DNA from: Pomacea canaliculata
Taxonomy: Eukaryota > Mollusca > Gastropoda > Architaenioglossa > Ampullariidae
Length of the DNA stretch: 64,000 bases
Reading direction: 5' to 3'
Assembly (NCBI RefSeq): GCF_003073045.1
Contig: NC_037590.1
Span: 1,824,016-1,888,015, forward strand
Below the pieces are notes generated by a model. It made no database searches, had not been told where the DNA came from, and worked only from the letters and a program-made list of their open reading frames with translations. The first letter of the stretch is position 1. Each line of letters begins with the position of its first letter. Positions 11,920 to 64,000 of the stretch are shown here, in pieces. The position numbers and the translations under genes were made by a program.

Positions 11920-13460
11920 ATGAAGACTATTACACGTCTGCTGTGGGCAGCCTCAACATCGGCCTTTGTCGGCGCAATGGCGACGAAGCGTTTTCAATGC
12001 CCTAAGGATGAGTTCTGGGACCTCGGAACCGACAGATGCGAACCCTGCAGCAGCATTTGTGAGAACGCCGTTCAGACGGGCTTCGGCGACTTCTGTCGTG
12101 AGATGTGTCCTGGTAAGAATAGTTACATCATCAACAATGTCACAAACTTAGAACCTCAAAAAATTGGGAGGAAAAAAATGAGTTGCATTTTAAATAATTC
12201 AATAATCAGTTATCATTCATATGGTCTTGACTCAGAGAGCAAGGACATACAGTGATGAAATACTACAATAAAGCTCATTTTATTGTCAACAGTTCCCGTT
12301 CAGTTTAAAGAGTAAAATCAATATTTGTGGAATTTCGATTTGCCATTGCTTATTGATGAGTGTGTTAATACCATGTTTCAGCATATGCAAATGCCATTTG
12401 GGATATAACTGGTGGAAAAAGCACACCAGCAGTTGAGAATAATGACAACAGTGGACTTTCACCAGAGATCATCGCCGCCATTGCTGTTGGGATATCAGCA
12501 TTTGTTGCACTGGCTGTGATTGTTCTTATTATTGTCAAAAGAAAACGTGACTATAGAGATCGCATTCCTGTACCTGTGGTGGAACAGGTCGATCAGCACC
12601 GCATCCAGCAGGAAACACCAGATGGATTCCGGGGCACGAGTGACTTTGTGCTCAGTAAGTCTTATTTCAAGGATTTTAAAAATATATTTTTTCACATTTT
12701 AAATAATTGTTGAATAAATTTGACTGCCATTTTATGTAAAGATTGTTACTACGTTGAATCCTTAGATGGAGTATGAAAGCATTTGACATCCCCTATGAAC
12801 TGTGTCTTGGTGTATGATATAAGCTTGAGTCTTAAACATGCCACATAATACTCATTGCTACTACCACATTTCAGTCTGTGAAAAGGAGATAATCGAACAC
12901 AGATTCATGACTGGAGTATTGTATAGACTTGAAACAGTTAATCGGCTTAAGATATGGCAAGCAGAGATAATGCCCTTTCTCGGTGCATAATGTACAGACC
13001 AAAACACCATAAACGTCAAAAATTAATATTTATTTTTTGAAAACTAAGAATAAATTGTTTGAAGTCATATATTTTGACCTGTGTTGATATTGGCTCAGTA
13101 GCCCACAGCATCAATAATAATAATGCAAAATTTATAAAGCACATATTCACACTCCTAAGGAGTATGCTCTTAGCTCTTAAGAACAAGAACAAACCATGGA
13201 CAGCAGACGAGGCACAGGAAGACAAACAATACATGAACTATAAAAGAATAAACAACAGTATTAATGAAGAATAAAATCAAATACAAAACCAAATAACAAG
13301 AACAAGAGAAAGTAAAAAACAGTAAAATGCAGGTGTTTATGTTTTACAGTCTGGTTTGTATGCTTTGTCTTCTATAGATACCACAGATTGCACTGAGGTC
13401 AAGATTTCTTTGGGCAGTTCTCAGCCTGAAGCCAGTGAAATGCCAGTGAGATGCATCTGA
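11920..13460 (+). CDS. TACI/BCMA-like TNF-receptor family protein A (one cysteine-rich domain)
   Basis: A predicted 182-residue type I membrane protein from three exons: 11920-12112, 12382-12654, 13378-13460; all joins are phase 1 with good GT-AG borders (CTG|GTAAGA, TTTCAG|, CTCA|GTAAGT, TCTATAG|). A hydrophobic N-terminus (residues 4-21) is followed by one six-cysteine domain (Cys27, 40, 43, 47, 59, 63; spacing 12-2-3-11-3) with the core FWD, a short stalk, one transmembrane helix (about 94-116) stopped by KRKR, and a ~60-residue tail. The cysteine spacing matches the TACI/BCMA class of TNF-receptor domains except for a longer fourth loop. It is first of five related same-strand genes. The tail has no clear death domain. 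Ligand unknown; the signalling role is inferred from the family. Confidence 0.82.
13098..13320 (+). repeat. Dispersed repeat copy, inverted relative to the copy at 17.0 kb
   Basis: This lies within the last intron of gene A. It shares ACTCCTAAGGAG.ATGCTCTTAGC, TATGAACTATAAAA, AAGAATAAAATC and CCAAATAACAAGAACAAGA with the reverse complement of 17000-17216. The two copies diverge but keep the same order over about 215 bp, so this is a SINE- or MITE-like interspersed element. No coding capacity. Confidence 0.75.
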
Positions 13461-16400
13461 ACCATCACCAAGTTAAGGGGAAGTAACTTGTATCCACTTC
13501 CCTTCATGAGGATACTGAAACAGCTATTAATGTTGTATATTTGAGATTTAAGATGTTTGTATCATCGTAACGGTTTTTTTTTTTGTTTTTTTTTGAGTAC
13601 CTGTAAAACTTTTTATTTCATATGATGTTTGTAGCAACTTTAGTAGCATACTGGTGTACAGAATAATTGACATTTCACGTCTTGGCAGTCTATTTGTCTA
13701 CCAACATGTGCTTCACTTGGACATGGATAAAATGCATGTGTATATGCACACTGGGATGTACGCATATCTTTACAGGGGGTTTCCTGTTAGTTTGCGTGAG
13801 CTGTGGCAGTAGTTTTGTTTGCCGCTGATGCAGTCGTTCCATGTAAGTGAACATCATATAAGTCTTCTTAAAATGATTTCACCTCTGCTGGATTGAAATT
13901 AGACACCAGCATTATTTGGCTGCTCTTTCACCAGTGCCTTGCTTGTTTTGTTTAAGTAAAACATTGATGAAAGAATGGCAAAATACTACAAGTGTCTTTT
14001 GTAATCCAGCATAGGTATAATCCTTTTTGAGAACACTTTCATGATGTTCGCTTGCATAGAACGACTGTACCAGCGGCAAATAAAACTGCTGCCACAGCTG
14101 ATCTAACCATGAGAATGGTGAAGATCGCCCGACAAATGTCTCTTAGAATTAAGGACATGGTGTTGTGTTATACTATGTTTCTTCCAGTCTATGAAGCTGC
14201 TCTTGAGTATGCTAAATAACAACTGTTTCATTTCGCTCTATTTAGACCAAAATTAATTGATAAAAATGTGGATTTTTGCCTGTATGCAAGGGCTAAAAAA
14301 AAATAGTAACCTACAAAGTCAGCACCACAGCAGAGTTAGTGAGAAAAATTTAAGTACGAGTCATCAGTACAGTAATCAAAATAGGACGGTGCAAGTTTTG
14401 CAACAAAATTATAGATAACAAGTATTTTTTTTTTTAAAATTAACTTTCTGCTAAAAAGACAAGGCTAACACTTGTAATCTAAGACACCTGGAAAACTCCT
14501 GTCAAGTCAGTCTTACATAGTTGTCCAATTTTTCAAACAAGATATAATGACCGTTTTTTACCTTCCTTGCTCTTGATATGGATCGACCAGGTAATGTCAC
14601 CTTTAGAATTTTTAAAAAGTAATGATTGGAGCATGCCAGCAACCACGCAACATTTAGACAGTGTTACAGTCATGCAGATGATACTTGATTATCTTTTTTT
14701 TTAAAAACTAATTTCAGTTTCAATTGAAGGGGTAAAATCAATCCTGATGAAGCATGATTGATTGCAAGGGGATGCTTTAATGGTGTGGTCTAACTCATCT
14801 TCCTGTGTCAAGTGATGTACATAATATCATTATTGTCAGCTGTTCTTAGAGTGGCAAGCAGAGGGCATGTAAATTCAAACATATTTCAGCACTATTTCAA
14901 ATACTTCAAAACTGTTCTTAGATGGCTCTGTGCTGCATTGACTTGGGGAATCCCACCTAACCATCATAGCAATCATTGTACTTATAGTTATCTTTTCTGT
15001 TACATCTGTTGTTGTTTGTTTATCTTAGTGCTTTATAGCAGCTGTTTATCCCATTTGTAAATAAACTTGATTTTACCATCCAGTCCTTCAAACAACAAAA
15101 TTATGTGTTAAAACTTTCTCAGTCTTTATTGTAGATATATCAGTCTGGTTGAGGGCAAAAAACATCAATGCTGATAGAATTTTTTTCCCAGAGAGAATTG
15201 TATAAAATATAAAGTACTATGTGTGGCTTGCTTTCATGTATTCTTTTACATTAATAAAGTATATTGAATGTCTTTTTGGTATCTAAATATTTTCTGTTAT
15301 TTATGAAGATCAAATGCATGCAACAAAAATAAAACCACACTTTGCAAATAAGGAAAATTCACATAATACATTTAGTTTAATATTAATAATGAGGATTTTT
15401 ATAGCTCCTTTCCAAAGATTTGCTCAGAGTGCTTTACATAAATAATATATAAACTAAATCATCAACAAAACATGCACTCATAATCACATATAACAGACAT
15501 ACTCACTTCTACAACGTAAACTCATGAACAAAGTAGTTTACTGGTAATAGTACCAGACCATATGGTTAAAGCATATACATCTGGATCAGTAAAATGTGAA
15601 ATGGACATGATTTTCTCTGAAACTTCAGGTTCACAAGTTGTATTTCCTGACCCCAATCACATAGCCATTACCAGTTGGTGCAACTTACCTTGTGGTGTGG
15701 TGGCTTGTGCACCTTTTCAATCCACTGAGCTATTTTAACCAAGCCAAACAGATCTGTCGGGGTAAAGGCCAGGCTAAAATGTCGCATTGGGTAACAACCC
15801 AGTCAATTAAGAAAAAGGCTGTTACAGAAACTGCATCAGTTCATCAACAGGTGTCTGGTCGGTAAGATTCCTCTCTAGAATAGCTTGTGATACGTTCTGG
15901 TGAAAGCCTTAGGGAAGCCAGCTCATCGACTTCTTTTGACTTTGAAAAGAACAGTAGAGAGCGAGACAAATGACATCGGAACCATATGGGCCCAACTGAG
16001 GGGAGCTGCCCAAAACCAGGTCCACTGGCAAGGGGTTGTTGCAGCTATATGCTCCTTGATGAGTAACAAGGAATAAACTAAACTAATCACATACAGTCAT
16101 GCACGATCGGCTCTTTGCTGTTGGCATGTTGCAGGCAACTGAAAATTTAGAGATATAGGTACTATATGTTGGAAGTGCTTACCACAAACCTCCATATTAG
16201 CATTTCTTTACATAAAAACGTTTTCCCTTTATACTCAGTTCTTATGTTCTGTTGTCTGTGTTTTTCGTCTGATTATTGAACTCGTCAGCAAAAGAGAAAG
16301 CTCGGGGACAGTTCATGTGCACTTTTTGTTTGTTTTTTTGGTCTGGAACAGCATTCCTTTCATTGCCCTACACCCAAATTCTGCAGACTACTTTATATCA

Positions 16401-17320
16401 ACCCCTGTCAGTCATATTACATATTATTGTATGAAATGTGGGTCAGTGATAGTTAATGGTGACTGGATTTGATGTGTACTTTTTATTATGTCAGTGTTGG
16501 CTTTAATTATTCTTGTATAAAATCCATGAGCTACTTATTGTCAGGAAAAGGTTTTGTATCATAAATAATCATTACTATTGACTAAAAAGATGAGTTTTAA
16601 AACAAACATACAACTGAAGTATGATGGCCTGATATATAAATCAGTCTAAACATTAGTTCATGATATACCAAACTGGTGTGAGAGCATGTTTATTGTGCTA
16701 AGCAGCTACTGAATCCATATTCCACTGGTGAGCCAACATTAAATGAAACTCAAAGTATGTCAGCTATGAAACGTTTCATATAAAAAAATCATACACACTA
16801 CCCTATTTTCGCACACACACTCCTATTTTCAGGAAAGTAATTCTTGTGCAATAAATTAAGGTGTATGTCTAGTCTATACTTTTACAGAAGTAAACTCAGC
16901 ATTATAAGCATTTACAAATTATCTTAAATCTACAGAGGTTCTACATACAAACTTTGCTACAAATTTACTAAAAATTCATTACATAGAAACTGGTATGTTA
17001 GTTCTTGTTCTTGTTATTTGGCCCCTCTATGCTTTTTCTGAGATTTTATTCTTTGTTAGAATATTTTTTTTTTATTATTTTATAGTTCATAATGTTATCT
17101 GTTTTTCTGTGACTCTTACGCGGTTTATGTTTCGTTTTTGTTGTTAGGCGCTAAGAGCATGCTCCTTAGGAGTGTGAGTATGCGCTTTACAAATGTTGCA
17201 TTTACAATTATTGTTATAGTGACTCTTAATTCAAGGGAAGTAAACATTGGCACCACTTTACCGGGAGATGTTAGAGTTGTCTGTGTTGTCAGAGTGGGTG
17301 TGCAATAAAGGAAATACCCG
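13461..17320. other. 3' flank of gene A and spacer before gene B
   Basis: AT-rich, with several AATAAA-type polyadenylation signals (for example near 14078). A repeat-like AATAATGAGGATTTTTATAG...AGTGCTTTACATAA segment lies at about 15388-15450. One NF-kappaB-type match, GGGGAATCCC, lies near 14945. No other gene is recognised. Confidence 0.5.
17000..17216 (-). repeat. Inverted copy of the 13.1 kb dispersed repeat
   Basis: The reverse complement of this stretch aligns in order with 13098-13320 (see that entry). The 22-bp block around ACTCCTAAGGAG is the best preserved part. This copy ends about 100 bp upstream of the gene B promoter. Confidence 0.75.
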
Positions 17321-17324
17321 GAGT

Positions 17325-17394
17325 TTTATATAGCATCCAATCACGAGCGTAAATCAATGCGGTCCAATCGCATTCTTTCATCGGATTCATAAGG
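17325..17394 (+). promoter_or_regulatory. Likely core promoter of receptor gene B
   Basis: Two CCAAT boxes (17337-17341 and 17364-17368) precede a weak TATA-like CATAAGG (17388-17394) that is about 81-87 bp from the ATG, nearly the distance seen in gene A. A second TATA-like TTTTATATAG lies at 17325. The arrangement recalls gene A, supporting common descent, but no start site is proven. Confidence 0.45.
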
Positions 17395-17474
17395 TCCCCC
17401 TGGTCAGCCGCAGCTTGCTCAGACTGCTCGAAACCTGTGGTTGTGTTAGATTGTCAGATGTAGTGACTTCAACC

Positions 17475-19374
17475 ATGCTGAGCTTTGATTTACACAAACT
17501 AACGTGTATTCTGATGCTAGTCAGTTGTATAAACAGCGTGATCTCAGCTCCGACATGCCCCGAAGACCATTACTGGGATACTGGTGTTGAGGACTGTGAA
17601 CACTGTCGCGACATTTGCCAGAACGCTCAGCTCCAGAAAACTGTCGAGGCATGCCAGCATAGCTGCCCAGGTAACACACTTCTAAACTTCAAAGTTATGG
17701 AAATAAACATGAAGGTAGATGTTTAGGAAGCCTCACGACGTGTTGACTGTTTACAAACCAGAAAAATGGCCTGAAGTTACCGGTTATGAGTTAATTATAG
17801 AAGTTTACGTCAGGTTTTAGGTTAGGGTTTATGGTATGTACGGTTTCTTCTTCATGGTGTCAGTAACAATATGTCGGTGATGCCACCTGAAATATATTTT
17901 TTATAAAATATAATTATTGTTATTTGATACGAATTTCCTTCATAAAACAGCGCTGTAGATCAAATATGAAATTAACGTTCTCTTTGGCTTACAGTAGCAC
18001 TACGTGGGGCCGGTCGAAAATATTAAATATTTATTTGTTGTTTTGAGTACATCTAATGGTTCCTTCCATGTAGAATCAATTTAAATGTCATTCTTGATGT
18101 TCATTGAATACCGTGATTGAGCTAACCGCAACCGGATGACACCAGTTATGCGGTCATGTGACAATGAACCGATCGAGGAGTGGGGTAGCATAGCAGCGAT
18201 ATAGTCACTTTAGTTTAGTGCCTTTTGTATCGATGTTGTTGTTGTTGTTTTTTTTATAATGCTGATGGCTTTTTTTATAATATTTACAAACATAAAAATA
18301 GATTGATGAATATAATTTGTAGCTGGAGTTTTAGTTCTGTTGTCTTTAACAGTGGATGGGTAGTACTGTACTATAGTTCCTATAAACCATGATTAAAAGT
18401 GAAAATAGTTTCTGTTATGAGTATTGTGTTTTCTTTATTTATTATTTTAATAAAGTTTACAAACACCACATTAGCATTGGCCTTAGATCAAAACACTGAT
18501 CTAAATATTCTTTGATGTGTATACTAGACATACCTTAGTAATAGTTTAAAAATAAAATGTATGGATTCTCTTTCAGCTTACTCCAAGAAGCTACATGATG
18601 GTGCTCAAAAGATTTTAGAGCCTAGCGGTGATAATAAAGGTGTTGCTGGTGCTTCCTCTGAGCCTAGCCAGGATGAACTACCCATTGGGGCTAAGGTTGG
18701 CATTGGTGTAGCATCATGTATAGCCATCGTTGGTATTGTCATTGCCGTCATTGTAGGCAAAAGGAGGATCATACAAAATAGGAGGAAACCTCGTTCTCAG
18801 ACTACATCATCTCAACTTACCTCAAAATTGGTTGGGTTCAAGAGACTCATTCTGGACGACAAGGACAACAAGAAATTGCTCTGCTTGGTAATGATTAACC
18901 ACTATTTTTAATATTATCATCATTATTGTTGTCATCATATTGTTGTCATCAGTTTCTGTTTACCATGGGTCACCAGTAGTAATAACTTCTTTACATTTTT
19001 TATTGCCCTTATAAATTACCTTCTGTTTAATTTTTTGCACTTTTACAATAATTTCAAAGCATTTGGACTTATTCTAGTTTTCTTTATTTGTTAGTCAAAA
19101 ATCAAACTTATTCATTTTGTAAATGATCAGCTGTATAGAGTCAACTTGTACTCAGCTCCACAAAGCGATCACCATAATTAGCCTGGTGTCATTTTGACAC
19201 TTTACATTTAAGCAATAATTTATGTGTTTGTGTGCATTTCCAGGTTCGAGCAGAGGGACAGTTGATGAGGAAGATGAAAATACACTGACGAAAAGCGTTG
19301 GTCCCATTTACATTCCCGCTGGACACCAGGCTGGAGCTCTTGCCACTCCATCACTCTTCAGTACAAGAATATAG
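17475..19374 (+). CDS. TACI/BCMA-like TNF-receptor family protein B (one cysteine-rich domain)
   Basis: Exon 1 17475-17670 (CAACCATGC start context; an in-frame upstream ATG at 17415 gives a poorer signal peptide), exon 2 18577-18887, exon 3 from 19244. Signal-like residues 1-25, then one six-cysteine domain (Cys28 to 64, spacing 12-2-3-11-3, core YWD), a Ser/Glu-rich stalk, a glycine/valine-rich transmembrane helix (about 106-126) stopped by KRR, and a basic tail. Exon 2 as written ends in phase 0. Joined directly, exon 3 stops at 19286-19288 (183 residues). In phase 1, as in genes A and D, exon 3 stays open to TAG 19372-19374, and exon 2 read one frame over ends QEIALL, resembling PIALM at the same point in gene D. 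A one-base loss late in exon 2 is therefore suspected. Intron 1 (906 bp) holds no recognised gene. Confidence 0.78.
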
Positions 19375-20492: not shown

Positions 20493-20915
20493 TTCAGAGG
20501 AGCATTTTTCTGGCTGGTGTAGTCAGAATGTGTTGTATTACTTCTGAGTGCTGACAGATTTAAGTTGTGTTGCGAAATGATCTTTCTTAAGTCTTTCGTG
20601 ATCAGAGGAGCATTTTTCTGGCTGGTTTAGTCAGAATATGTTGTATTACTTCTGAGTGCTGACAGATTTAAGTTGTGTTGCAAATGACCTTTCATTAGTC
20701 TTTCATGTTCAGAGGAGCATTTTTCTGGCTGGTATAGTCAGAATGTGTTGTATTACTTCTGAGTGCTGAGAGATTAAGTTGTGTTGCAAAAATGACAACC
20801 TTCTTGAGTTTTTCTGTGTTTAGAGAAGCACTGTTCTCTGGCTGGTGTAGTCAGAATGTCTTGTGTTCTTCTTTGAGTACTGATTGCTTAAAGTTGTCTA
20901 AAATATAATTGCTGC
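20493..20915. repeat. Tandem repeat of about 108 bp, four copies
   Basis: Direct copies start at about 20493, 20602, 20708 and 20820. Each begins TTCAGAGGAGCATTTTTCTG and continues through GTAGTCAGAATGTGTTGTATT and a CTTCTGAGTGCTGA block. The first three are close matches; the fourth (AGAGAAGCACTGTTCTCTGG) has diverged and is truncated. Confidence 0.9.
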
Positions 20916-34117: not shown

Positions 34118-37104
34118 TGAGTGAGTGAGTGAGTGAGTGAGTGAGTGAGTGAGTGAGTGAGTGAGTGAGTGAGTGAGTGAGTGAGTGAGTGAGTGAGTGA
34201 GTGAGTGAGTGAGTGAGTGAGTGAGTGAGTGAGTGAGTGAGTGAGTGAGTGAGTGAGTGAGTGAGTGAGTGAGTGAGTGAGTGAGTGAGTGAGTGAGTGA
34301 GTGAGTGAGTGAGTGAGTGAGTGAGTGAGTGAGTGAGTGAGTGAGTGAGTGAGTGAGTGAGTGAGTGAGTGAGTGAGTGAGTGAGTGAGTGAGTGAGTGA
34401 GTGAGTGAGTGAGTGAGTGAGTGAGTGAGTGAGTGAGTGAGTGAGTGAGTGAGTGAGTGAGTGAGTGAGTGAGTGAGTGAGTGAGTGAGTGAGTGAGTGA
34501 GTGAGTGAGTGAGTGAGTGAGTGAGTGAGTGAGTGAGTGAGTGAGTGAGTGAGTGAGTGAGTGAGTGAGTGAGTGAGTGAGTGAGTGAGTGAGTGAGTGA
34601 GTGAGTGAGTGAGTGAGTGAGTGAGTGAGTGAGTGAGTGAGTGAGTGAGTGAGTGAGTGAGTGAGTGAGTGAGTGAGTGAGTGAGTGAGTGAGTGAGTGA
34701 GTGAGTGAGTGAGTGAGTGAGTGAGTGAGTGAGTGAGTGAGTGAGTGAGTGAGTGAGTGAGTGAGTGAGTGAGTGAGTGAGTGAGTGAGTGAGTGAGTGA
34801 GTGAGTGAGTGAGTGAGTGAGTGAGTGAGTGAGTGAGTGAGTGAGTGAGTGAGTGAGTGAGTGAGTGAGTGAGTGAGTGAGTGAGTGAGTGAGTGAGTGA
34901 GTGAGTGAGTGAGTGAGTGAGTGAGTGAGTGAGTGAGTGAGTGAGTGAGTGAGTGAGTGAGTGAGTGAGTGAGTGAGTGAGTGAGTGAGTGAGTGAGTGA
35001 GTGAGTGAGTGAGTGAGTGAGTGAGTGAGTGAGTGAGTGAGTGAGTGAGTGAGTGAGTGAGTGAGTGAGTGAGTGAGTGAGTGAGTGAGTGAGTGAGTGA
35101 GTGAGTGAGTGAGTGAGTGAGTGAGTGAGTGAGTGAGTGAGTGAGTGAGTGAGTGAGTGAGTGAGTGAGTGAGTGAGTGAGTGAGTGAGTGAGTGAGTGA
35201 GTGAGTGAGTGAGTGAGTGAGTGAGTGAGTGAGTGAGTGAGTGAGTGAGTGAGTGAGTGAGTGAGTGAGTGAGTGAGTGAGTGAGTGAGTGAGTGAGTGA
35301 GTGAGTGAGTGAGTGAGTGAGTGAGTGAGTGAGTGAGTGAGTGAGTGAGTGAGTGAGTGAGTGAGTGAGTGAGTGAGTGAGTGAGTGAGTGAGTGAGTGA
35401 GTGAGTGAGTGAGTGAGTGAGTGAGTGAGTGAGTGAGTGAGTGAGTGAGTGAGTGAGTGAGTGAGTGAGTGAGTGAGTGAGTGAGTGAGTGAGTGAGTGA
35501 GTGAGTGAGTGAGTGAGTGAGTGAGTGAGTGAGTGAGTGAGTGAGTGAGTGAGTGAGTGAGTGAGTGAGTGAGTGAGTGAGTGAGTGAGTGAGTGAGTGA
35601 GTGAGTGAGTGAGTGAGTGAGTGAGTGAGTGAGTGAGTGAGTGAGTGAGTGAGTGAGTGAGTGAGTGAGTGAGTGAGTGAGTGAGTGAGTGAGTGAGTGA
35701 GTGAGTGAGTGAGTGAGTGAGTGAGTGAGTGAGTGAGTGAGTGAGTGAGTGAGTGAGTGAGTGAGTGAGTGAGTGAGTGAGTGAGTGAGTGAGTGAGTGA
35801 GTGAGTGAGTGAGTGAGTGAGTGAGTGAGTGAGTGAGTGAGTGAGTGAGTGAGTGAGTGAGTGAGTGAGTGAGTGAGTGAGTGAGTGAGTGAGTGAGTGA
35901 GTGAGTGAGTGAGTGAGTGAGTGAGTGAGTGAGTGAGTGAGTGAGTGAGTGAGTGAGTGAGTGAGTGAGTGAGTGAGTGAGTGAGTGAGTGAGTGAGTGA
36001 GTGAGTGAGTGAGTGAGTGAGTGAGTGAGTGAGTGAGTGAGTGAGTGAGTGAGTGAGTGAGTGAGTGAGTGAGTGAGTGAGTGAGTGAGTGAGTGAGTGA
36101 GTGAGTGAGTGAGTGAGTGAGTGAGTGAGTGAGTGAGTGAGTGAGTGAGTGAGTGAGTGAGTGAGTGAGTGAGTGAGTGAGTGAGTGAGTGAGTGAGTGA
36201 GTGAGTGAGTGAGTGAGTGAGTGAGTGAGTGAGTGAGTGAGTGAGTGAGTGAGTGAGTGAGTGAGTGAGTGAGTGAGTGAGTGAGTGAGTGAGTGAGTGA
36301 GTGAGTGAGTGAGTGAGTGAGTGAGTGAGTGAGTGAGTGAGTGAGTGAGTGAGTGAGTGAGTGAGTGAGTGAGTGAGTGAGTGAGTGAGTGAGTGAGTGA
36401 GTGAGTGAGTGAGTGAGTGAGTGAGTGAGTGAGTGAGTGAGTGAGTGAGTGAGTGAGTGAGTGAGTGAGTGAGTGAGTGAGTGAGTGAGTGAGTGAGTGA
36501 GTGAGTGAGTGAGTGAGTGAGTGAGTGAGTGAGTGAGTGAGTGAGTGAGTGAGTGAGTGAGTGAGTGAGTGAGTGAGTGAGTGAGTGAGTGAGTGAGTGA
36601 GTGAGTGAGTGAGTGAGTGAGTGAGTGAGTGAGTGAGTGAGTGAGTGAGTGAGTGAGTGAGTGAGTGAGTGAGTGAGTGAGTGAGTGAGTGAGTGAGTGA
36701 GTGAGTGAGTGAGTGAGTGAGTGAGTGAGTGAGTGAGTGAGTGAGTGAGTGAGTGAGTGAGTGAGTGAGTGAGTGAGTGAGTGAGTGAGTGAGTGAGTGA
36801 GTGAGTGAGTGAGTGAGTGAGTGAGTGAGTGAGTGAGTGAGTGAGTGAGTGAGTGAGTGAGTGAGTGAGTGAGTGAGTGAGTGAGTGAGTGAGTGAGTGA
36901 GTGAGTGAGTGAGTGAGTGAGTGAGTGAGTGAGTGAGTGAGTGAGTGAGTGAGTGAGTGAGTGAGTGAGTGAGTGAGTGAGTGAGTGAGTGAGTGAGTGA
37001 GTGAGTGAGTGAGTGAGTGAGTGAGTGAGTGAGTGAGTGAGTGAGTGAGTGAGTGAGTGAGTGAGTGAGTGAGTGAGTGAGTGAGTGAGTGAGTGAGTGA
37101 GTGA
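34118..37104. repeat. Perfect (TGAG)n microsatellite, about 747 units
   Basis: 2,987 bp of uninterrupted TGAG. No substitution or frame slip is visible in any row. On the minus strand the repeat reads Thr-His-Ser-Leu in all three frames, creating ORFs of more than 1,000 codons that are artefacts. Such purity over this length suggests very recent growth or an assembly effect; the true length may differ. Confidence 0.97.
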
Positions 37105-41515: not shown

Positions 41516-44500
41516 CAGTCACACCTCGAAATCCGTTCCAAAACAATCGGCGAAATCCGAAACAGACGAAAACCGAGACAATTATTTCATATTCAACAAT
41601 ACAAATCCAATTAATTCGTTCTAGGTCAGGTCAGGTCAGTCCCATGCCCGGTCCGGGCGTAGGGGGGACCGTCCGGCAGCAGCAACAGACAGAATTTTCC
41701 ACCCGGTCCTGTCTTGAGCAGATGAGAGCAGGTCTGGCATCTCGCGTTCGGTCCATTCTTTAATGTTGGTGACCCAGCTTTTCCTCGGACGACCACGACG
41801 ACGGCTCCCTTCGAGGTTCCTTGTAGAATCGTCTTGGACCAGGGTGTTGTGGCGGGTGACGTGACCGAACCCAGGCGAGCTTGCGCCGCTTCACTGTTGC
41901 CAGAAGGGCTCATGTGGGCCCACGAGGGAGGTTACGGTGCTCCGTACGTATGCGTTGGTCTTGTGTTCGCGGTACGAGATGCGGAGCAGCTTTTCTCAAG
42001 CACTTGTTCTCAAAGGCCTGGAGCTTCTTTTCCGTTGCGGCAAGCAGCGTCCAAGTCTCGCAGCCGTAGAGTAGGATTGACACTACGAGGGACTTGTACA
42101 GCCTGTGTTGGTACTGAAGCTGATTGGTTGCTTCGCAGATCCTATCCAGCCTGGACATTGCGGATGTTGCCATACCAATCCTGATACGGATCTCTGCTGT
42201 ACAGCAGCCATCTCTAGTCAGGGTGGCACCCAAATACTTGAAGCTGTTGACTCCTCCAGTTTCTGGCCGTTCATGACGATGTTGCTGCTGCTGTCGGTGG
42301 TGGAAATAATCATTACTTTGCTTTTTTCTGAGCTTATTTCCATGCATAGGCCCCGCTCGCCTGGAGAGTCTGTCCGTCAAATCCTGAAGTTCGTTGTTAC
42401 TGCCTGCCATGAGGTCAATGTCATCTGCAAAGCGGAGGTTGCACAGGGGTCTGCCACCAATGGAGATTGAGGTAAGTGGTTGTGGAGGGTGTCTTGCATG
42501 ATTTTTTTCAAGGAAGATGTTAAAAAGGATGGAGAGAGAGGCACCTTGACGGACCCCGATCGTCATCGCGAAGAATCGCCTAGTTGGTTTGTTGAGTAGT
42601 ACCGCGCTGGAGGCGTTCTTGTAGAGTGCTGCTACCATCTGGATCAGTCCTCCTCTATGTTGAATGATCTCATGACCTGCCAGAGTCCATCGTGCCAGAC
42701 ACGATCAAAAGCTTTTTTGAAATCGATGAAGTTATGGTATAGTTGACGTTGATGCTCCAGGTGTTTTTTCTATCATAACACGGCAGTTAAAGATCTGTTC
42801 TACCGTGCTTCTTCCAGCCCTGAAGCCAGCCTGTTCTTCTGCCAGCAGTTCCTCTGCAATAGGTTTTAAGCGGTTGAGGATGATTCTGAGCATTACTTTG
42901 CTTGGTGACTTATCAGACTGATGGTTCTGTAGTTCTGGCACTGCCTCAGGTTCCCTTTCTTAGGGAGTGGGATGATGATAGACTGAGCCCATTCTTTTGG
43001 GCATTTCTTTTCTTCCCATATCTTTTGACACAGTGTGGTGAAGGCCTTGGTTGTTGCGTCTCCTCCATGCTTCAGCAGCTCAGCAGGTACGTTGTCCACA
43101 CCAGGTGACTTTCTCCCTTCAGACTGTGCATAGCTTCTCTCACCTCATCAGTGAGGACTGGCAGGTCTTCAGCTCTCTTGTCCCAGTCTGGTGATGCTGG
43201 AGAATGCTGGTGTCTGGCTCGATCTTGTAGTTGTACAAGTCTTGGCAATTCAGTCCAACGACTTAGTACAGCAGCTTTCTCCGTAAGGAGCTGTCGGCGC
43301 TGTCTTCGATGACTGTGGCTGGTCGCTGCTGAGTCTTGGTGAGGGCCTTCAGTGTTCATATGCCTTCTTGCTGTCTCCGCTTGCCATGCCTATTTCCACG
43401 CTGCAACACTGGTCTTCGATCCAATCTTCTTTTGCCTCCTTCATCCTTGTTCTGATCTGCTGGTTGACAAGTCTGTACTTGTCTGCTGACGTCGGGTCTC
43501 GACCTCTCCCTCTCTTCAAGGCTCTCCTTTCGTCGCAAAGATCAAGGATGTCGTCTGTCACCAGGGTTGTTTGCGCTTCCTCTGCTTCCCCAGCACTTCG
43601 TCTGCAGTAGAGAGTAGCACCTCTTTGATACTTCCAGCAAGGGCGTCTATGTCGCAGTCTATAGTAGCCAGGGCTGCAAATTTGCCCCCCACCTGGGCCT
43701 GGAAGATCCTCTCTGTGTCCGGATCTTTGAGCTTCTCAAGGTTGAATCGGATGCGAGGGCTCTTATTGTTTGTCACGTCTCAACTTCAGTTTCAACTTGA
43801 GGCTAGTGAGGACGAGGTTGTGGGTCGCTGCCTATGTCAGCGCCAGGAAAGGACCTCGTTTGTGCTTTGTTGATGCCTGATTTGAAACGCTGAGGCAGCA
43901 AGATGAAGTCAATCTGGTTATGGACCAGACCTCCCGGCGAATGCCACGTTACAGTTCTTGACTTCTTGTGCGGGTGGAGGGTATTGGCAATGGTGAGACG
44001 GTGACTCTGAGCGAATTCTAGTAGCCGTAGGCCTCTTGCGTTGGTGTTGCCTAGGCCAACTTGCCGACTGTTCCTGCCCATTGTTGGTAAGCGTCAGGGC
44101 CGATCGTAGCATTCCAGTCGCCAAGGACAAGCAAGATGTCTTTCTTCGGAGTTTTCTTGATGATGTTGTCCAGCTCCTCGTAGAATTCCTCAACCTCTTC
44201 ATCTTCGTGTTCTGATGTTGGGGCGTACACTTGTATAATGGTGATGTTGTGCGGTCGAGCAGAGATTCGTTCTAGACATTCCATAAAAAAAAACAACAAA
44301 CAAACCAAAAACACGTTTTATAGAGACTAAATGTAGTTTAATACTAAAAACATTTTTTAAAACATAAAAGACTGATGTAAAGAGCTTAAAACTTTCTTTA
44401 GTCCCATGATGGAGCTGAAACGAAAGGGTTAACTCATCAGCAAGGAAAAGATTTAACAGGGACAATGAGATTTGAACACATGTGATTTTATCTTACATGC

Positions 44501-48470: not shown

Positions 48471-48479
48471 CTTTCTAGG

Positions 48480-49989: not shown

Positions 49990-51950
49990 ATGGAGCACGT
50001 GCTGCTTGGCCTGTTGAGCTGCTCACTGATGGTGGTGCAGCCTGCATCCAGCTTCCCGCACCCGTCGCTGCTGCTCGCTCTGAAGTGCCAGGCCATCTCC
50101 GAGTACTTCGATTCCGTCACAGGGTCGTGTGAACCGTGTCGAGAAATCTGTGAACTCGCCCACATCACGAGAACGCAGCAAGAATGTGAAACACAGTGCG
50201 GGGGTGAGTGTCATGGCGAACTGCTTTCCTCTCAACTGTCAACATGTTTGTCTCACCACCATCAACGGGACAAGTCCAGTTACTCATCTTTGACTTTCAA
50301 ACCTGTTTTGTGGTCCTCTTTGGTTTATCATAACTGGGGAAAATGTCTTCCAAATTTCAGTTTGAGCAGGTCGTTTAGTGAGGAGTGCATCTGTTCTTTG
50401 TTTGACTTGTTCTTGAGAACATCACTGCTTCTCTAACCTCGAAGTTCCAATATGATTGATATCCGTGCTTTCCCAGAAAAGACATTTCTTAAGAGCCTAA
50501 GCCATCAGAGTGAGAGGTTTTGGGGATTTCAATTTTGAATAGGTTGTCCGAAATACTCAATTTAAATCTTGAAATCTAAATCAGGAAATGTTTGCCCGCA
50601 GTTAACGCCCACTGTATCTATCTGCACTCAGACAAGTCAATAAGTACATTTAAATGGGGTCGCTGGCGTTCTCAGGAAAAGGGATTCCCCGGAGGTCAGG
50701 TCAAACTATTTTTCTTGTTCGCCTGTTAGGAAGTCCTCACTAGGAAGAGGTTGGTTGGTTGGCTGGTTGGTTGGTTTAATAAAGCGATTTCACATTATTG
50801 GAGGGGGAGGGAGAAGGAAGGAAATAGCCCGACGGCCAGCACTTGTCATACAGTGTTCGAAGAAGAGATCTGAACCCAATGTGTTTTTTGTTTGTTTCTC
50901 TACAGACTATGTCTTAGCCTCGAAGTGCACCAGTGACCAGTACTACGACACTGTGGTGCACAGCTGTGCGCCCTGCTCGGAGCTGTGTGACAGCTTCCAC
51001 GTCACGAACACCAGGGACGACTGCCTCCGCCAATGTCCAGGTTCGCTTGTGTTCACTCCTTGTTGACCAAACACTAACCTGCTCGTGAGTGTCGTGTGCG
51101 TAGTAACGGCGCCAACTGACGTGTGTAAACGTTAATTACTGTCATTTCACGAGCCTGTCCACTCCAGTCACGTGTGCGGCGCCATGACCTCACATCCTGG
51201 ATACGCCATCTCCAAATGTTTGCACGACAATCATATTAGAGACTTGGCAAACTGTCACACACAGTACTTTATGTATCCGGTAAGAATACGAATAACGGCT
51301 CTTGAAACGGATTGTGGGTGGGTCTAGTAGTCTGGACCACTAAATGAACATGTGGGTAAACTCTCCATCGACTGTAAAAACACGGAGGGGGTCTGTGTAC
51401 ACGTACTTGCAGTGGCGTAGGAACCAGGGGGAATGAGGGGGGGGGAGATACTGAGGGAACAAGAATGTGAACATTGTTCACTTTCAGCATGGATCTTTGC
51501 CCCACCCCAACCTCACAAAGCCGAGCATCTTCCTACCCCACTGACTTGTAGAAACATATGACATCCAATAGCTACCCGCTTTATTTATTTATTGTCTTCT
51601 TTATTTCTTGGGACCTCGAGAGCTGTCCTCATGTCATGTTCTCACCTCTTACAGGTTATACTACTATGAGGCTGCCATCTAGCAACGTGTCTGCCACCCC
51701 GAATGGAAATTCTTCAGCAGGGGAACAGGACCCGCCCAGCCAGTCTGACGTAGGCCTGACCATCGCCATCATCATTATCGTGTTGGCAGTCGTTGTTGTG
51801 GGTGTGACGTTGACTGCTGTCGCCGCTGTCGTATGTCGACCCGGAAAGTGTTGCTGGTGGACCAGCCAGGTGATCTACACACCTGTGGTGGAGGGAAGTC
51901 CTGCATCATCAATCACCAAACCGATTCCATGTGCTGCTGATGAGGTGTGA
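49990..51950 (+). CDS. TACI/BCMA-like TNF-receptor family protein C (two cysteine-rich domains)
   Basis: Exons 49990-50203, 50906-51040 and 51655-51950 (phase-1 joins) predict 214 residues. A hydrophobic leader (about 4-20) precedes CRD1 (Cys33 to 70; spacing 13-2-3-11-3; core YFD). CRD2 (Cys79 to 115; 12-2-3-11-3; core YYDTVVHSC) occupies a 135-bp exon of its own. Then comes a stalk with N-glycosylation sites (NVS, NSS), a transmembrane helix rich in Ile/Val (about 151-176), a Cys-rich juxtamembrane CCWW and a short tail with TPVVE. CRD2 is strikingly close to the BCMA core EYFDSLLHAC. The donor after CRD2 (GTTCGC) is weak. The stop at 51948-51950 may be bypassed by splicing GATGAG|GTGTGA to a further exon at about 52453; that exon reads GQTVYDSECDQHTARIG only in phase 1, so the 3' end is unresolved. 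Confidence 0.82.
50681..50690 (+). promoter_or_regulatory. NF-kappaB/Rel-type motif in intron 1 of gene C
   Basis: GGGATTCCCC fits GGGRNWYYCC exactly. Genes D and E have the same class of motif in their own first introns. Confidence 0.5.
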
Positions 51951-55449: not shown

Positions 55450-55457
55450 TGACGTCA
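55450..55457 (+). promoter_or_regulatory. CRE-like palindrome upstream of gene D
   Basis: TGACGTCA, a perfect cAMP-response-element-type palindrome, lies about 100 bp before the gene D ATG in a locally CpG-rich patch. No TATA box is evident. Confidence 0.4.
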
Positions 55458-55552
55458 CGTCTCGCGATACTCAGGCGCGCGCGAGGCGCTGGCACTCACA
55501 CCTACACCTGTACGCTAGTCGGATAGAGGTTATTCACCATCGAGCACCCGTC

Positions 55553-58054
55553 ATGTCCACTGGGCTGAAAGCGAGTGTCGTCTTACTAACCGTTGTTGCT
55601 ATGGTAACAGCAACCGGTGGCTCACCGCCAAGCAAGAAATGTCCGTTTCATCAGTTCTTTGATACGGGACCAACGACTGCGAATCGTGTCGGGAATTCTG
55701 CGATAACATGAATCTCACAAGATCTGAAGAAATGTGCAAGAAAGAATGTCCAGGTATGTCCCTTCTTCTCTAAAAATGTTCAGTCATCGATTAAAAAAAA
55801 AAAAAAAAAAAAAAGAAGAAATGACAGTTCGAGTCTTAAATGAAATAAAGTCAAAGGTGTTATCCTGCCCTCCAGGTTCATTGTCTCTGTTCAGGTGACA
55901 CGTTGACAAAGTTAAGGGTAGGTGTGGGGTAGGGATGTTTGCTTGAAATGTCAGCCGACCGTAGGCACAGTGTCCGATAATCTAATTCTCACTGAACGGA
56001 GGACATGGCAGGAGAGATAATCTGACGGTTAATTTTCTGCCATCAGTTGCACGATGCTTTCCGGTCCTGTGTTCACCAACAGCCTACAACATAAGCTGAG
56101 GTAGTTGTAGTTATGTTTTCTCAAAGAAACATGAGGTGAGGTGGTGGAGGGCGCTTAGTGAGAGGCGAGGTGTTGTTCTCTTCACATCACCGACAAAGGG
56201 AGTGTCTACCTGCGGAATGTAGGGGATTCCCCCTTCACCGCATATCCGTGTCATAGAGCACAGCGCATGCGCAGTGACCCGTTGTTGTGCACGCCGTATT
56301 GCGCAAGGTTCAGAGGGCAAGCCAGACATTACATGTCGTGTTTCACAGCAATATTAACAAAGATCAGGAAGAGATGAAGAGCACGTAGGCGAGATTGGTA
56401 AACTTGTTGACTTGGTGCACTCTGCTTCTTCCGCCTTTAGTTTACAGTTTGATGTGTTGAGTATATATATATGTATGTGTACATGTACATGCTAATGTGA
56501 CCTTTACTTACTGTCTGCTGCGTCCTCTTCCCCTTCACCTACCAGTCACACGACTGGGAGGTATTTATATCTACATCATGTCGTAAACTAAGTAAGAGGA
56601 CAATAAAATCATGTTGTGTAGTAGCGTCACATCACAAAGAAAAATCCTTTGTTTAACTGATGGTCCATCACACTTCACATGAAGTGAAAGGTGGATATTT
56701 TCAAACACGACAAACTGCTCCGTTGATTTACACAAAAAGAAAAACACTATTTTCAAGATGATCTAAATTCTAAACACTTTCGGTCCTTCTAAAGAAAGAA
56801 AACAAATTACAAGAGAAAATAACATTCATCAATGAGCAATGTGAGGATATATTTTATGTGTTTGTGTGTGTGTTTGTGTGTGTGCAGATTATCTCCGGTC
56901 CATGAACTGCAAAGCTGACCAATATTACGATGATGTGGTGCACAACTGTGAGCACTGCTCAGAGCTGTGTGATGACCACATCGTCAAGAAGACGACTGAC
57001 GAGTGTTTCAACAAGTGTCGAGGTCAGTGCCATCAACCTTTTTGGTCTTGCTCACTTCCACATCTTAGAGACCAGCCTCCCTATCCCTCACCCCCTCCAG
57101 TAACAACAGGACTACAGCTGAGTGTACTTTTATGTACACGTTTAGATACCGGGATCTTTTCTGACAAAATTAAATGAAGAAGTCATAAACTACAAACAGT
57201 GGACAGCTCTACGTTTGCTATGTCAGATGGAGCTGATTATGTTGTTTACAGCCTCCTGTCCCTATTTCCAAGGCAGTTTCCCAACTACACTTTAATGATT
57301 TGTACTAGGGGTTGGTGGGGGAAATGAGGGGCTAAACTTAGAAAAAGGTCAGATGCTGACCCCGAAATTTGCCGATGTTCCAGACTACTTCCCGAGAGAG
57401 CAGAATCCGAAGCCAGCAAACAATGAGGTGCACTTGAAGACCGTCTCCAACTCTGAAGGGAAAGGTGGCGGGACCCTGCAGTTGGGTTCTAATAGAGGGA
57501 AATTAGTGGCGATCATCGCCATACCATCTGCTGCAGTCATCGTATTCATCGTGGTGGTCATCACGATTTGGTTTTGGAAACGTCGTCCTCGTCGTCCGGA
57601 CAACAGACTTCCGGAAGTCCTGTACGCGGCTGCCACTCAGGAGGACGGTGATGTTACCAGCGATGATAGGGGTCAGAGGTCACCAATCGCGCTAATGTCA
57701 GGTTTGTCTGGTTTTCATTGTACCTTGCTTTCTTTCTCTGTCATATACAATGTCTTTTATTATTTTTTTTTCGTGCAGTTAATCAATCAATGTAAACATT
57801 AAATTCTTAATTTTAAAATTCCACATCCGAAACATGTTCATCATGCAATCTCTCTTACAATCAATATTTTCAAAATATGAAGCTGAACAGTTTCAAGACC
57901 ATACCGCTTTCCACAGGCAGTAATGTTCGTGTGTTTCGTGTCTCTCACAGGAGAGGCGTATCCTGAAGATTTTGGTCCGTCCTGCCACTCAGTGTGTGAA
58001 GACAGTGGAGCTGATTGCAGATCATCGGTCCCGTCGTCTGTCGTCACATCTTGA
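55553..58054 (+). CDS. TACI/BCMA-like TNF-receptor family protein D (two cysteine-rich domains; frame break in CRD1)
   Basis: Exons 55553-55753, 56888-57022, 57384-57701, 57951-58054, all phase-1 joins. The leader (about residues 6-21) is followed by CRD1. Directly translated, CRD1 runs into a TGA after CPFHQFFDTG, but the other five cysteines (NDCESCREFC, then MCKKEC) follow intact one frame over: a single base is missing near 55668-55673. With that base the exon lengths sum to a multiple of three (252 residues) and the spacing becomes the family's 12-2-3-11-3. CRD2 (core YYDDVVHNC) fills a 135-bp exon. A transmembrane helix (IIAIPSAAVIVFIVVVITIW) is stopped by KRRPRR. The tail contains ATQED (57632-57646), a TRAF-binding-like motif, and an acidic, Cys-containing end. 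Either a recently broken gene or an assembly indel. Confidence 0.8.
56222..56232 (+). promoter_or_regulatory. NF-kappaB/Rel-type motif in intron 1 of gene D
   Basis: GGGGATTCCCC, a near-palindromic Rel-type site, lies in the 1.1-kb first intron. Its placement parallels genes C and E. Confidence 0.5.
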
Positions 58055-61000: not shown

Positions 61001-61780
61001 AGGGTATATGGACCTGACATAGCCCCTCCCTGTCTGACACACACACACGTACACACACTAACCTGTTTGTAACCGTCTAGTTTAATTTCCATCGTCAATG
61101 ATTACGAACCTATAGCGCTTTGTAGACTGATCAGCTCATATGTAATAAATCCACAGATAGGTAAAATCTGAGTTAATTACTGCGGGTCATTATTCTCATA
61201 ATTTTTGTGTAAAAATTCACATTCACGTACGTCACATTGAAATTGAATAATGTGGTCATCGCATGAATTAAACGGGTACAATCAAATTAATTAGTGTTAC
61301 ACGTGCATCAAGACTGTAGCCCATCCCTGAAGCGTTTTATCTGTATTAACGTGTACGATATCGTTGGATGTCTCTAACACATAATTTGGGGGAATCGCTG
61401 TTAAATGGGATACTTAGAATTCCTACGAAACAAAAACCCTGTGATAATTAAATAACTGTTTCACGCCGCGTTGAGTAAAGAGCGAGTTCACACCGCGGAT
61501 TACGCAACAGGTGAGTGATGTGTCGCAACTTCCTCTCCTTTCAGAGTTTTCTCGAACTACCACCGTTAGTAAGTCCGGAAATTTCCGATACATGTAAGCC
61601 TCAGACGTCACAGGACAGGAACCAATAATAACCTGACGTTGTTATCCCCACCACCACCACCACTACTACCACCACCACCACTCTCTTTCTCACTCCTTCG
61701 TCCTCCCCTATCAGCTATTTGGTTACACGAAAGGCAGGAGAACACGGCAATCCCATCACACCGCGACCAACCTCCGAGTT
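58055..61780. other. 3' flank of gene D and spacer before gene E
   Basis: Possible polyadenylation signals (AATAAA) occur at about 58802. A diverged duplication containing CTGTCATGACACACTGTAAT or TTGTCATGACATACTGTGAT lies at about 58228-58295. A CCA-rich microsatellite at 61650-61685 sits in the presumed 5' untranslated region of gene E. No further gene is recognised. Confidence 0.5.
60926..60938 (+). promoter_or_regulatory. Palindromic NF-kappaB/Rel-type motif upstream of gene E
   Basis: GGGGGATTCCCCC is a 13-bp near-perfect palindrome containing a canonical Rel site. It lies about 850 bp before the gene E ATG. Confidence 0.5.
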
Positions 61781-61786
61781 TACAGC

Positions 61787-64000
61787 ATGCCTTCCACAAC
61801 CTCTCTGTGTGCTTCCGCCACTGCTGTCGTCCTCGTCGTCACACAGTTGACGTTGTCGTCAGCGAGCACGTCTCAACATTCGTGTGGCGAGAGCGAATAT
61901 TATGATTCTGGCACCGGGAGCTGCGAGCCCTGCTACGACATCTGTCTGTATGCAGCTTACTACAAAACGGTACAGGAATGTAAAGACAACTGTCCAGGTA
62001 AGACAAGCCCATCCTTCAAACTTTTGAGAAAAATTGAGGTTTTCTTTTCACCTAGGTGAGGCCGGTATAGGGCTATATATAGTGGCGTGAGATGTACATC
62101 GTATGTCGTATGTCGTCTGCAACTAGCACCCCATCGCCTCCAAAATCAGATGATAATATATTTCTGAGAGACAAGAGGTTATAGTTAATTTAATTTAACA
62201 TTTCTCTAACTGAATGGTAACTGAACAACGAGGGTCTAGCGATGGGGCAGTGTGTCACCTCTGAGGTGTAACCACAGGTAGACAGCAGGGTGCAGTCAGG
62301 GGATTCCCCGCCTCCTGCACACAGACGACAGCATGACAAGTTTATAGCAAACATTCTAAGGGTGAGGGTGGGACCCTGTTGAAGGGTTAACTGCTACTTC
62401 TTGTGTGTATTTTGCATTCATTATACATCAGTAAAAGGTTCTTTGTCGAATTAATGCTGATAGCTGGTATGTCAGTAGCATCTTAAAAAAATGTTCATCA
62501 CAGATGTTTAAATCAGACCGCGTACATAAGGACAGCTTTCAAAATGGAGATGCAAGTAACATTTTTCTCCCTTGCATAAGTACAACATATGTTTGTACTT
62601 CTGATTCTTAAGTGTGAAAAAGATCATTTTAGTATGATGAAGTGTAGGTGGTGCCTAATATTCTACATTTTAATTTCATGATTGACAATGTCCCACAGAT
62701 TATGACGCAAAAAATGACTGCAAAGAAGATGAATACTTTGATGATGTGGTTCACAGCTGCACCTCCTGTTCAGAAATTTGTGATCATCATACACTGACTG
62801 ACAGTACAACACAGTGTTATGAAAAGTGCAAAGGTGAGGTAGAAAAATGTACCTAATTATTTGTAAAATTATATATAATTGTTTTGCTGTGTTTTCATGT
62901 GGAAATGGTAAAGGCAGTTAAAAAATATTAAATATAAATATCAATTCAGACATAATAAGTTACATAACCTTCAGTTCTTTAGAAATACAAAACAGAAAAG
63001 TGGCCACTTCTCAAATCATATACAAGTAGATCTCAACATTATTAGCCGTGACTCTGAACATTCAAAACAATTTTTTTAATGTCATCTCTATTTAATTTGG
63101 TTTTATTTTAATGTGTTTACAGATTACATTGAGAAGAAACCACCAGAAGTTGTGTCAAACAGGAAGTCGGATGCTCTGAAAGCATCAGCAACTCTTGATG
63201 GGGGCAACAATAAGTTGTCCTCAGAAGATCCCAGCAGTACCAGCAGTTTTAGCCTGGCTAACCCTGGATGGGTGACAGCCCTGGCTTTGGGTATTTTGTG
63301 CTTCATCTTAGTCATCGTTGTCATTGCTCAACTTTGGAAAAACAGAAGTTCCTACAATCCTGTCAACAAAGAAGACATAGAGCCTGGTGCAGTTCCTGAC
63401 AACCCACAAACACCGGCACGTCCTGTAGAAGAGACCAGCAGTAATGGATCAGACCATTTTGCATTTCCAGGTAAGCAAACTGTAAAGCTATTAAATACTG
63501 CAAACAATAAGGCATCTGCTTGAAAAGTATTTTTTTTACATACATATATCTCCAGATTTACAACAGGACTGTCAGATTTCATAGTGGGGTTGAGATTGGC
63601 AGGTTAGTGAAGAAGGGGAGGTAATATAGGCAATGCAGTATGCACTGGTCGTATGGAATACAACGGTCAAACAAGAAATTTTCTGCTAAAATTAAGGTAG
63701 TTGCATGTCTTGTATGCTTAGAATCACCCATAGTTATATACTCTTTTAAGTGAAGTTTGTATTTTGTGACAGTGTAGGCACTGAATATATAGGAGCTTTG
63801 GAAGTCAAGCATGAAAGTTTTATCCTGGGTTTAGCTTTATAATGTTTCTAGCTTATGGTCCCTTTACATGTATTTTAAACTTTTTCCTGTGTCACCCCAG
63901 ATTCTGAACCATTTTTTTATTTATTTATTTATTTTTTTTTTTTAAATCTTTTTCAGGATGCCAAAGGGTTGCTTTCAGTGAACTTTCACGGGATCAAGAA
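61787..64000 (+). CDS. TACI/BCMA-like TNF-receptor family protein E (two cysteine-rich domains), 3' partial
   Basis: Exons 61787-61997, 62699-62833, 63123-63470 and 63957 onward; the last runs off the window. All joins are phase 1, and the donors (GTAAGA, GTGAGG, GTAAGC) are good. The leader (about residues 8-26) precedes CRD1 (Cys33 to 69; core YYDSGTGSC; 12-2-3-11-3) and CRD2 (core EYFDDVVHSC, nearly the BCMA core) in its own 135-bp exon. A Ser-rich stalk, a transmembrane helix (ALALGILCFILVIVVIAQLW) and a tail with PVEET (63422-63436), matching the main TRAF2-type consensus (P/S/A/T)x(Q/E)E, follow. The last visible residues are GCQRVAFSELSRDQE. No frame break is seen, making this the best-preserved two-domain member here. 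Confidence 0.85.
62299..62309 (+). promoter_or_regulatory. NF-kappaB/Rel-type motif in intron 1 of gene E
   Basis: GGGGATTCCCC, the same 11 bp as in intron 1 of gene D, lies 300 bp after the exon 1 donor. Confidence 0.5.

Follow-up and report, generated by a model that had tools for sequence, protein, structure and literature searches.

A tandem cluster of five predicted BCMA/TACI-like TNF receptor genes of the single-domain class in the snail Pomacea canaliculata

Introduction

The receptors of BAFF and APRIL are usually discussed in connection with B cells, and the locus described here raises the question of whether a mollusc possesses receptors of the same type. The locus lies in a stretch of 64,000 nucleotides from Pomacea canaliculata (contig C1:1824016-1888015; hereafter the window), where five gene models follow one another on the + strand between 11.9 and 63.5 kb. 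Genes 1 and 2 contain a single six-cysteine domain (cysteine-rich domain, CRD) and genes 3, 4 and 5 contain two. This layout bears out a first-pass annotation of the stretch, which had described five same-strand genes with one or two CRDs, had read them as BCMA/TACI-like TNF receptors and had proposed three checks: a Pfam search, structure prediction and a search for TNF ligands in the same genome. The genes are best explained as a tandem array of small single-domain (A1-C2) TNF receptors that would be coupled to TRAF proteins and would bind a snail TNF ligand. We estimate the probability of this reading, of which ligand binding and signalling are the inferred part, at roughly 0.6.

A conserved six-cysteine domain encoded by single exons

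The pattern C-x12/13-C-x2-C-x3-C-x11-C-x3-C has seven exact matches in the six-frame translation of the window, all on the + strand, and none in 100 first-order Markov simulations of the window. The pattern had been attributed to all eight domains; it holds for seven, the exception being the first CRD (CRD1) of gene 4, in which the conserved Asp and the second Cys are separated by a frame change (14 nucleotides vs 15 in the paralogues). The downstream part of this domain alone is recovered at an expectation value (E) of 3.2e-10 with a profile built without gene 4 CRD1, and with profiles that leave out one gene at a time, each of the seven intact CRDs still obtains 46-62 bits. Each CRD is encoded by one phase-1 exon. 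In all seven intact CRD exons, the last Cys is followed by a phase-1 GT at which the exon stops and, as read by eye, phase-1 AG acceptors open the three exons of the second CRDs (CRD2s) and the five membrane exons, with the residues (A/D/G)Y in eight of eight. One CRD per exon is also the organization of TACI.

The mean identity of 21 CRD pairs is 0.58 at codon position 1, 0.58 at position 2 and 0.36 at position 3. The synonymous distance (dS) is undefined in 15 of the 21 pairs and above 1.4 in five; between gene 3 CRD2 and gene 4 CRD2, dS is 0.69 and the nonsynonymous distance (dN) is 0.31. At the sequence level, the five genes look like old and constrained duplicates rather than recent assembly copies. 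The CRD2s are 46-57% identical among themselves, and their identity to the CRD1 of their own gene is 43% in gene 3 and 32% in gene 5. Since the CRD2s are closer to each other than to their own CRD1s, the comparison suggests that the domain duplication preceded the gene duplications, with a small margin in the case of gene 3.

All genome-wide searches covered the assembly of 440,159,624 bases. With genes 1, 3 and 5 as queries, the cluster itself was recovered together with weak matches outside it (best outside E 0.30), and over 40 kb on each side of the cluster no match of the CRD profile went below E 5.6. Two of the outside matches (L042 and L056) were considered as further copies and rejected, stops being present or the pattern missing on the matching strand.

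Sequence similarity to BCMA and TACI

In the Pfam search, gene 3 passes the cut-off of the family BCMA-Tall_bind (PF09257) with 27.8 bits against 27, in two stretches, and gene 5 obtains 20.7 bits. Gene 4 matches TACI-CRD2 at 12.0 bits (cut-off 22.9) and gene 1 matches the Fn14 family at 17.9 bits, below the cut-off of 24.9. A profile of the seven intact CRDs was compared with 177,635 PDB sequences and gave 17 matches, the top 12 being BCMA (ten, best E 2.8e-4) and TACI (two); no TNF receptor other than these two was found up to E 10. With gene 5 CRD2 as a single query sequence, all 12 PDB matches were BCMA or TACI, and phmmer gave an E of 9e-4 to BCMA. When typed human segments (TACI, BCMA and Fn14) were scored with the seven-CRD profile, TACI CRD1 obtained 29.4 bits, BCMA 19.4 and TACI CRD2 17.2. 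In 300 profiles with shuffled columns and fixed cysteines the corresponding maxima were 15.3, 14.3 and 13.6, and none of the 300 reached the real scores.

An aromatic-aromatic-Asp motif forms the hairpin tip in all eight CRDs and continues as DxV in four of them and as DxG in the other four. The three CRD2s carry DxVVH, near the DSLLH of BCMA, and four of the five CRD1s carry DxG, which suggests that binding in the two-domain genes would rely mainly on CRD2. The A1-C2 arrangement of cysteines (a hairpin C-x2-C-x3-C, then C-x3-C) is found, by spacing, in all seven intact CRDs.

Predicted structures

The two CRDs of gene 5 were modelled with AlphaFold. Both models consist of a beta-hairpin followed by two helices, with a mean predicted local distance difference test (pLDDT) of 82.8 and a predicted template modelling score (pTM) of 0.47 for CRD1, and of 70.8 and 0.39, respectively, for CRD2. 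In the Foldseek comparison with the PDB, BCMA occupies ranks 1-13 for both models. Among the best 50 of the 77 matches of the CRD1 model, Grindelwald is found at ranks 15 and 18, Fn14 at rank 16 and TACI at ranks 28, 36 and 40, the listed ranks after BCMA being interspersed with unrelated chains. For the CRD2 model, which has 31 matches, the first 20 ranks are filled by BCMA, TACI, BAFF-R and Grindelwald. It is the ranking, not the E-value, that carries the fold evidence, because a domain of 37-44 residues is expected to give weak E-values. The BCMA/TACI-like reading was thus upheld by the Pfam match of gene 3, by the PDB sequence search and by the proposed structure prediction, both predicted models ranking BCMA first at weak E-values. 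From a viral structure library, 196 matches were obtained within the limit of E 10; the best had an E of 0.51, and the top 50 of the 196 included no convincing one. LDLa domains, which appear among the lower-ranking fold matches, were rejected as an identity for the CRD; their cysteine spacing differs from that of the snail domain.

These data bear on the idea that the CRD is a short cysteine-rich module of an unrelated membrane protein family and resembles BCMA by convergence. The domain has 37 residues only, the E-values of the structures are weak, CD320 modules are among the fold matches of both models, and two short peptides, Tk-hefu-11 (E 0.27) and OmTx1 (E 1.5), align in the PDB search with the profile's second half. 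However, the matches are not confined to cysteines but span the hairpin and the central cysteines, the fixed-cysteine shuffles stay below the BCMA and TACI scores, BCMA and TACI head the PDB sequence searches and BCMA heads both fold searches. Convergence is in our opinion improbable.

Relationship to Grindelwald and to vertebrate receptors

According to the available text of PMC8024323, Drosophila Grindelwald is composed of an X2 hairpin and a C2 module, Cys57-x3-Cys61-x11-Cys73-x3-Cys77, and is described there as lacking the DxL-type motif of BCMA and TACI. The C2 spacing C-x3-C-x11-C-x3-C is present in seven of seven intact snail CRDs. The longer fourth loop, which had been taken as specific to the snail family, is therefore not so, the same x11 being found in the C2 module of Grindelwald (PMC8024323). 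The X2 hairpin, with its two intercalated disulfides and eight cysteines, was not found in the snail CRDs, each of which has six cysteines. The snail CRD is, as far as its sequence goes, a BCMA/TACI-like (A1-like) hairpin combined with a Grindelwald-like C2 spacing.

The snail genes could then be molluscan counterparts of Grindelwald with an Eiger/EDA-like ligand, the BCMA-like hairpin being retained or convergent and uninformative on the BAFF/APRIL axis. Grindelwald, a protostome receptor, has the identical C2 spacing and belongs to the single-CRD class (PMC8024323, available text), and for the CRD1 model it is the best receptor after BCMA (rank 15, with 22 columns at a root-mean-square deviation of 1.0) and precedes Fn14 and TACI. 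On the other hand, its eight cysteines and X2 hairpin without DxL-type motif contrast with the six cysteines and the aromatic-Asp tip of the snail domain, Grindelwald does not appear in the PDB sequence search up to E 10, and TACI ranks above it for the CRD2 model. We consider this explanation unlikely, though less so than convergence.

Fn14 (TNFRSF12A) is also a single CRD with a C2 module, has the sub-cut-off Pfam match to gene 1 and appears at fold ranks 16 and 30, whereas its segment scores -3.2 bits with the seven-CRD profile, under the mean of the shuffled profiles (-0.3). The canonical TNFR_c6 receptors belong to the same superfamily and are detected at 26 places elsewhere in the genome at E 0.001 or better. 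In the genome search, their family PF00020 (TNFR_c6) gives no match of E 0.001 or better inside the window. It is also missing from the Pfam results for the five models, a negative limited by the HMMER filters, which remove most matches weaker than about E 0.1. Elsewhere in the genome, two neighbouring genes, C3:37796784-37797944 and 37837823-37838986 (L002-L008), show ten TNFR_c6 matches each, in single frames of 427 and 426 residues.

BCMA shares with the snail CRDs the first half C-x12-C-x2-C-x3-C and the Tyr-aromatic-Asp hairpin, and is the top match among solved structures and PDB sequences. It differs by a spacing of 8 between the fourth and fifth cysteines (C4-C5) vs 11 in the snail and by DxL vs DxV or DxG, and the snail genes have up to two CRDs. 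TACI shares the tandem CRDs of snail genes 3-5, and its CRD1 gives the highest profile score; its C4-C5 spacing, counted on the typed human sequences, is 7 in CRD1 and 6 in CRD2 vs 11, and the snail genes differ from it by an apparent leader and by the missing Leu of the tip motif. BCMA, TACI and BAFF-R are type III membrane proteins (PMC6001812, available text), BCMA and TACI being without leader, unlike the snail genes, which apparently have one and do not conform to this type. In view of the apparent leaders, the absence of the DxL Leu and a C4-C5 loop that exceeds that of BCMA by three residues, the genes should not be called BCMA or TACI; the proper label would be BCMA/TACI-like TNF receptors of the single-CRD class. 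A domain of 37 residues cannot settle orthology with BCMA or TACI.

A common single-CRD ancestry is plausible, because an arthropod Eiger clusters structurally with EDA, BAFF, APRIL and TWEAK, of which BAFF, APRIL and TWEAK bind their receptors via a single CRD (PMC6684607, available text). A more tentative proposal, which we find possible but not favoured, is that BCMA/TACI and Grindelwald both descend from a single-domain TNF receptor to which the snail CRD has stayed close. In the vertebrate BCMA/TACI line, the C2 loop would then have been shortened, the DxL tip acquired and the leader lost; in the Grindelwald line, the hairpin would have been remodelled to X2 and the tip lost.

Leaders, membrane helices and cytoplasmic tails

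The single membrane helix annotated for each gene is confirmed by hydropathy, with one strong helix per model (19-residue peaks of 2.84-3.24 in five of five). A leader had been noted in all five genes. By hydropathy, and not with a dedicated signal-peptide predictor, it is clear in genes 2, 3 and 5 and weak in gene 1; gene 4 was scored from CRD2 on, and its leader was seen by eye only. The tails, which had also been described as short, may be longer, possible splice donors being found at the end of four of the five membrane exons, with one more donor doubtful. Gene 5 may run on past its phase-1 donor, perhaps out of the window. A TRAF2-type motif is present in two of the five incomplete tails, ATQE in gene 4 and PVEE in gene 5; as TRAF-binding sites, these motifs are only suggestive. 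Conserved tail exons were searched with blastp of the open segments 3' of the five genes, and the best 60 matches were short, of low complexity or repeat-like.

The last result, with no further tail exons and no tail conserved among the paralogues, would fit a partly degenerate cluster in which certain copies would be pseudogenes, or decoys that lack signalling tails, as would the frame change in gene 4 CRD1. However, the other seven CRDs are open, their splice sites are at the same place, their codon positions 1 and 2 are constrained, and gene 4 CRD2 is still near gene 3 CRD2 by the distances given above. The frame change itself may be a sequencing error, since the assembly is PacBio-based (PMC6129957, available text). 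We judge degeneration to be the least probable of the explanations considered.

Ligands and signalling partners in the genome

The proposed search for TNF ligands was positive: PF00229 detects 16 places in the genome, 13 of them over the cut-off. Six TNF-homology ligand exons are arranged in tandem on one strand at C6:16151921-16190842 (L020-L023, L025 and L026). Three ligands were compared with the PDB. L019 (C14:14728431-14728835) is closest to TRAIL and RANKL, and has a Cys-Trp at what we take to be the position of the zinc-binding Cys of TRAIL. L023, from the C6 tandem, is closest to RANKL and FasL, apart from a BAFF-APRIL fusion. The same fusion is ranked first for L027, where it gains from three summed domains; the single-chain matches of L027 are TRAIL (E 0.0017), BAFF (0.009) and APRIL (0.025). 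Of the 13 ligand places over the cut-off, L027 is the only one in which a cysteine pair is seen by eye in the loop preceding the strand ASGMFLLEKGD, presumably a trait of BAFF, APRIL and EDA.

MATH domains of the TRAF type were detected at nine places of the genome and Death domains at 38 places at E 1 or better. No Death domain was found within C1 1.78-1.93 Mb, in an exon-by-exon search that could miss a divergent or split one, and Death matches are located 13 kb and 5 kb downstream of the canonical TNFR_c6 places C1:15.39 Mb and C2:3.78 Mb.

If the snail genes are tandem single-domain TNF receptors, the aromatic-aromatic-Asp tip of each CRD would plug onto a TNF-homology ligand encoded by the genome, by analogy with BCMA and TACI on BAFF and APRIL and with the Grindelwald hairpin on Eiger. 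Ligand trimers would gather the receptors, the cytoplasmic tails would recruit TRAFs through ATQE (gene 4) and PVEE (gene 5), and the output would be survival, stress or immune activation, not direct killing by a death domain.

Evidence to be set against the BCMA/TACI-like assignment

Several results count against this assignment. In the proposed Pfam search, four of the five models miss the BCMA cut-off passed by gene 3; gene 2 has no TNFR match, and the top match of gene 4 is PRIMA1 (22.5 bits, cut-off 38.6), two more sub-threshold families also standing above TACI-CRD2. At the scale of the genome, the window CRDs account for four of 18 matches of PF09257, at 16.8-18.3 bits (E 1.5-4.6), and seven places outside the window score higher, one of them over the cut-off; the top place (27.7 bits) matches the second half of the profile only, the cysteines of the first half being missing in its frame. 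With TACI-CRD2, a single window CRD is detected (16.4 bits, twelfth of 15 matches, none over the cut-off). The Leu of the DxL motif is missing in eight of eight CRDs. As regards the structures, the pTM values are low, with seven sequences behind each model, the best Foldseek E-values are 0.43 (CRD1 model) and 0.17 (CRD2 model), many aligned pairs of the CRD2 model have a root-mean-square deviation of 4-5, and both Grindelwald and Fn14 rank above TACI for the CRD1 model. The TRAF2-type motifs, present in two tails of five only, have a chance of 0.05 and 0.11 in shuffled tails, and none of the three ligands compared (L019, L023 and L027) is clearly of the BAFF/APRIL type.

Gene models and neighbourhood

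The exons of the five genes are given in Table 1.

Table 1. Exons of the five predicted receptor genes (window coordinates).
Feature	Position	Strand	Basis or remark
Gene 1 exon 1: weak leader and single CRD (11998-12108), hairpin FWD-LG	11920..12112	+	left-out profile score 46 bits
Gene 1 membrane exon: stalk and membrane helix, then first part of the cytoplasmic tail	12382..12654	+	phase-1 acceptor/donor by eye; hydropathy peak 3.15
Gene 2 exon 1: leader and single CRD (17556-17666), hairpin YWD-TG	17475..17670	+	pattern, splice phase, hydropathy, left-out profile
Gene 2 membrane exon, 3' end uncertain	18577..18887	+	splice reading; hydropathy peak 2.84
Gene 3 exon 1: leader and CRD1 (50086-50199), hairpin YFD-SV	49990..50203	+	pattern, splice phase, hydropathy, left-out profile
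Gene 3 exon 2: CRD2 (50926-51036), hairpin YYD-TV, weak donor GTTCGC	50906..51040	+	PF09257 best stretch
Gene 3 membrane exon, open to stop at 51950 or doubtful donor just upstream of stop	51655..51950	+	hydropathy peak 3.24
Gene 4 exon 1: leader by eye and CRD1 (55640-55749) with internal frame change	55553..55753	+	downstream part E 3.2e-10; gene 3 query E 0.076
Gene 4 exon 2: CRD2 (56908-57018), hairpin YYD-DV	56888..57022	+	pattern, splice phase, left-out profile
Gene 4 membrane exon, ATQE in tail, 3' end uncertain (weak donor GTTTGT)	57384..57701	+	splice reading, hydropathy
Gene 5 exon 1: leader and CRD1 (61883-61993), hairpin YYD-SG	61787..61997	+	pattern, hydropathy; model pLDDT 82.8
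Gene 5 exon 2: CRD2 (62719-62829), hairpin YFD-DV	62699..62833	+	phmmer to BCMA E 9e-4; model pLDDT 70.8
Gene 5 membrane exon, PVEE in tail	63123..63470	+	splice reading, hydropathy

Upstream of the cluster, a neighbouring gene at 5369-7512 (+ strand) combines LDLa modules, leucine-rich repeats and a rhodopsin-type seven-transmembrane domain, and resembles what we take to be the snail GRL101/LGR receptor type. Just upstream of it, the segment 3693-5090 is C-type-lectin-like by eye, Pfam having found no family in it. An array of about 747 copies of (TGAG), with 100% matches over 3 kb, is located between genes 2 and 3 (34118-37104), and a 108-base tandem repeat of 3.5 copies is found at 20493-20872. 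On the - strand, there is a weak reverse-transcriptase match at 41910-42704 (20.4 bits, below the cut-off of 29.6) and a DUF6451 match over the cut-off at 7769-8134; both are perhaps pieces of old retroelements.

Significance

Among the titles and abstract openings found, none reports BCMA/TACI-like receptors in a mollusc, subscription papers such as that on the 2015 oyster TNF repertoire being outside this scope. Since PF00020 does not find the snail genes, the counts of mollusc TNF receptors may be too low. We assume that the entry IPR001368 includes PF00020. According to their available texts, one survey of invertebrate TNF receptors counted by signature CRD (PMC4979521) and a second one by IPR001368 (PMC9334734).

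From the sequences compared here, the BCMA/TACI-like receptor type may be older than vertebrates. With the tandem ligands of C6, the genome that carries the receptor cluster also shows an expansion of ligands. If the proposed reading is true, a protostome family with a BCMA-type hairpin, a C2 fold and the Grindelwald spacing ties together the single-domain receptors of vertebrates and fly, and the origin of the BAFF/APRIL ligand-receptor axis becomes testable. If, moreover, the snail CRD is close to the common ancestor, the branch of the BAFF/APRIL receptors would predate the split of protostomes and deuterostomes, and would have expanded in molluscs while being overlooked by censuses of the TNFR_c6 type.

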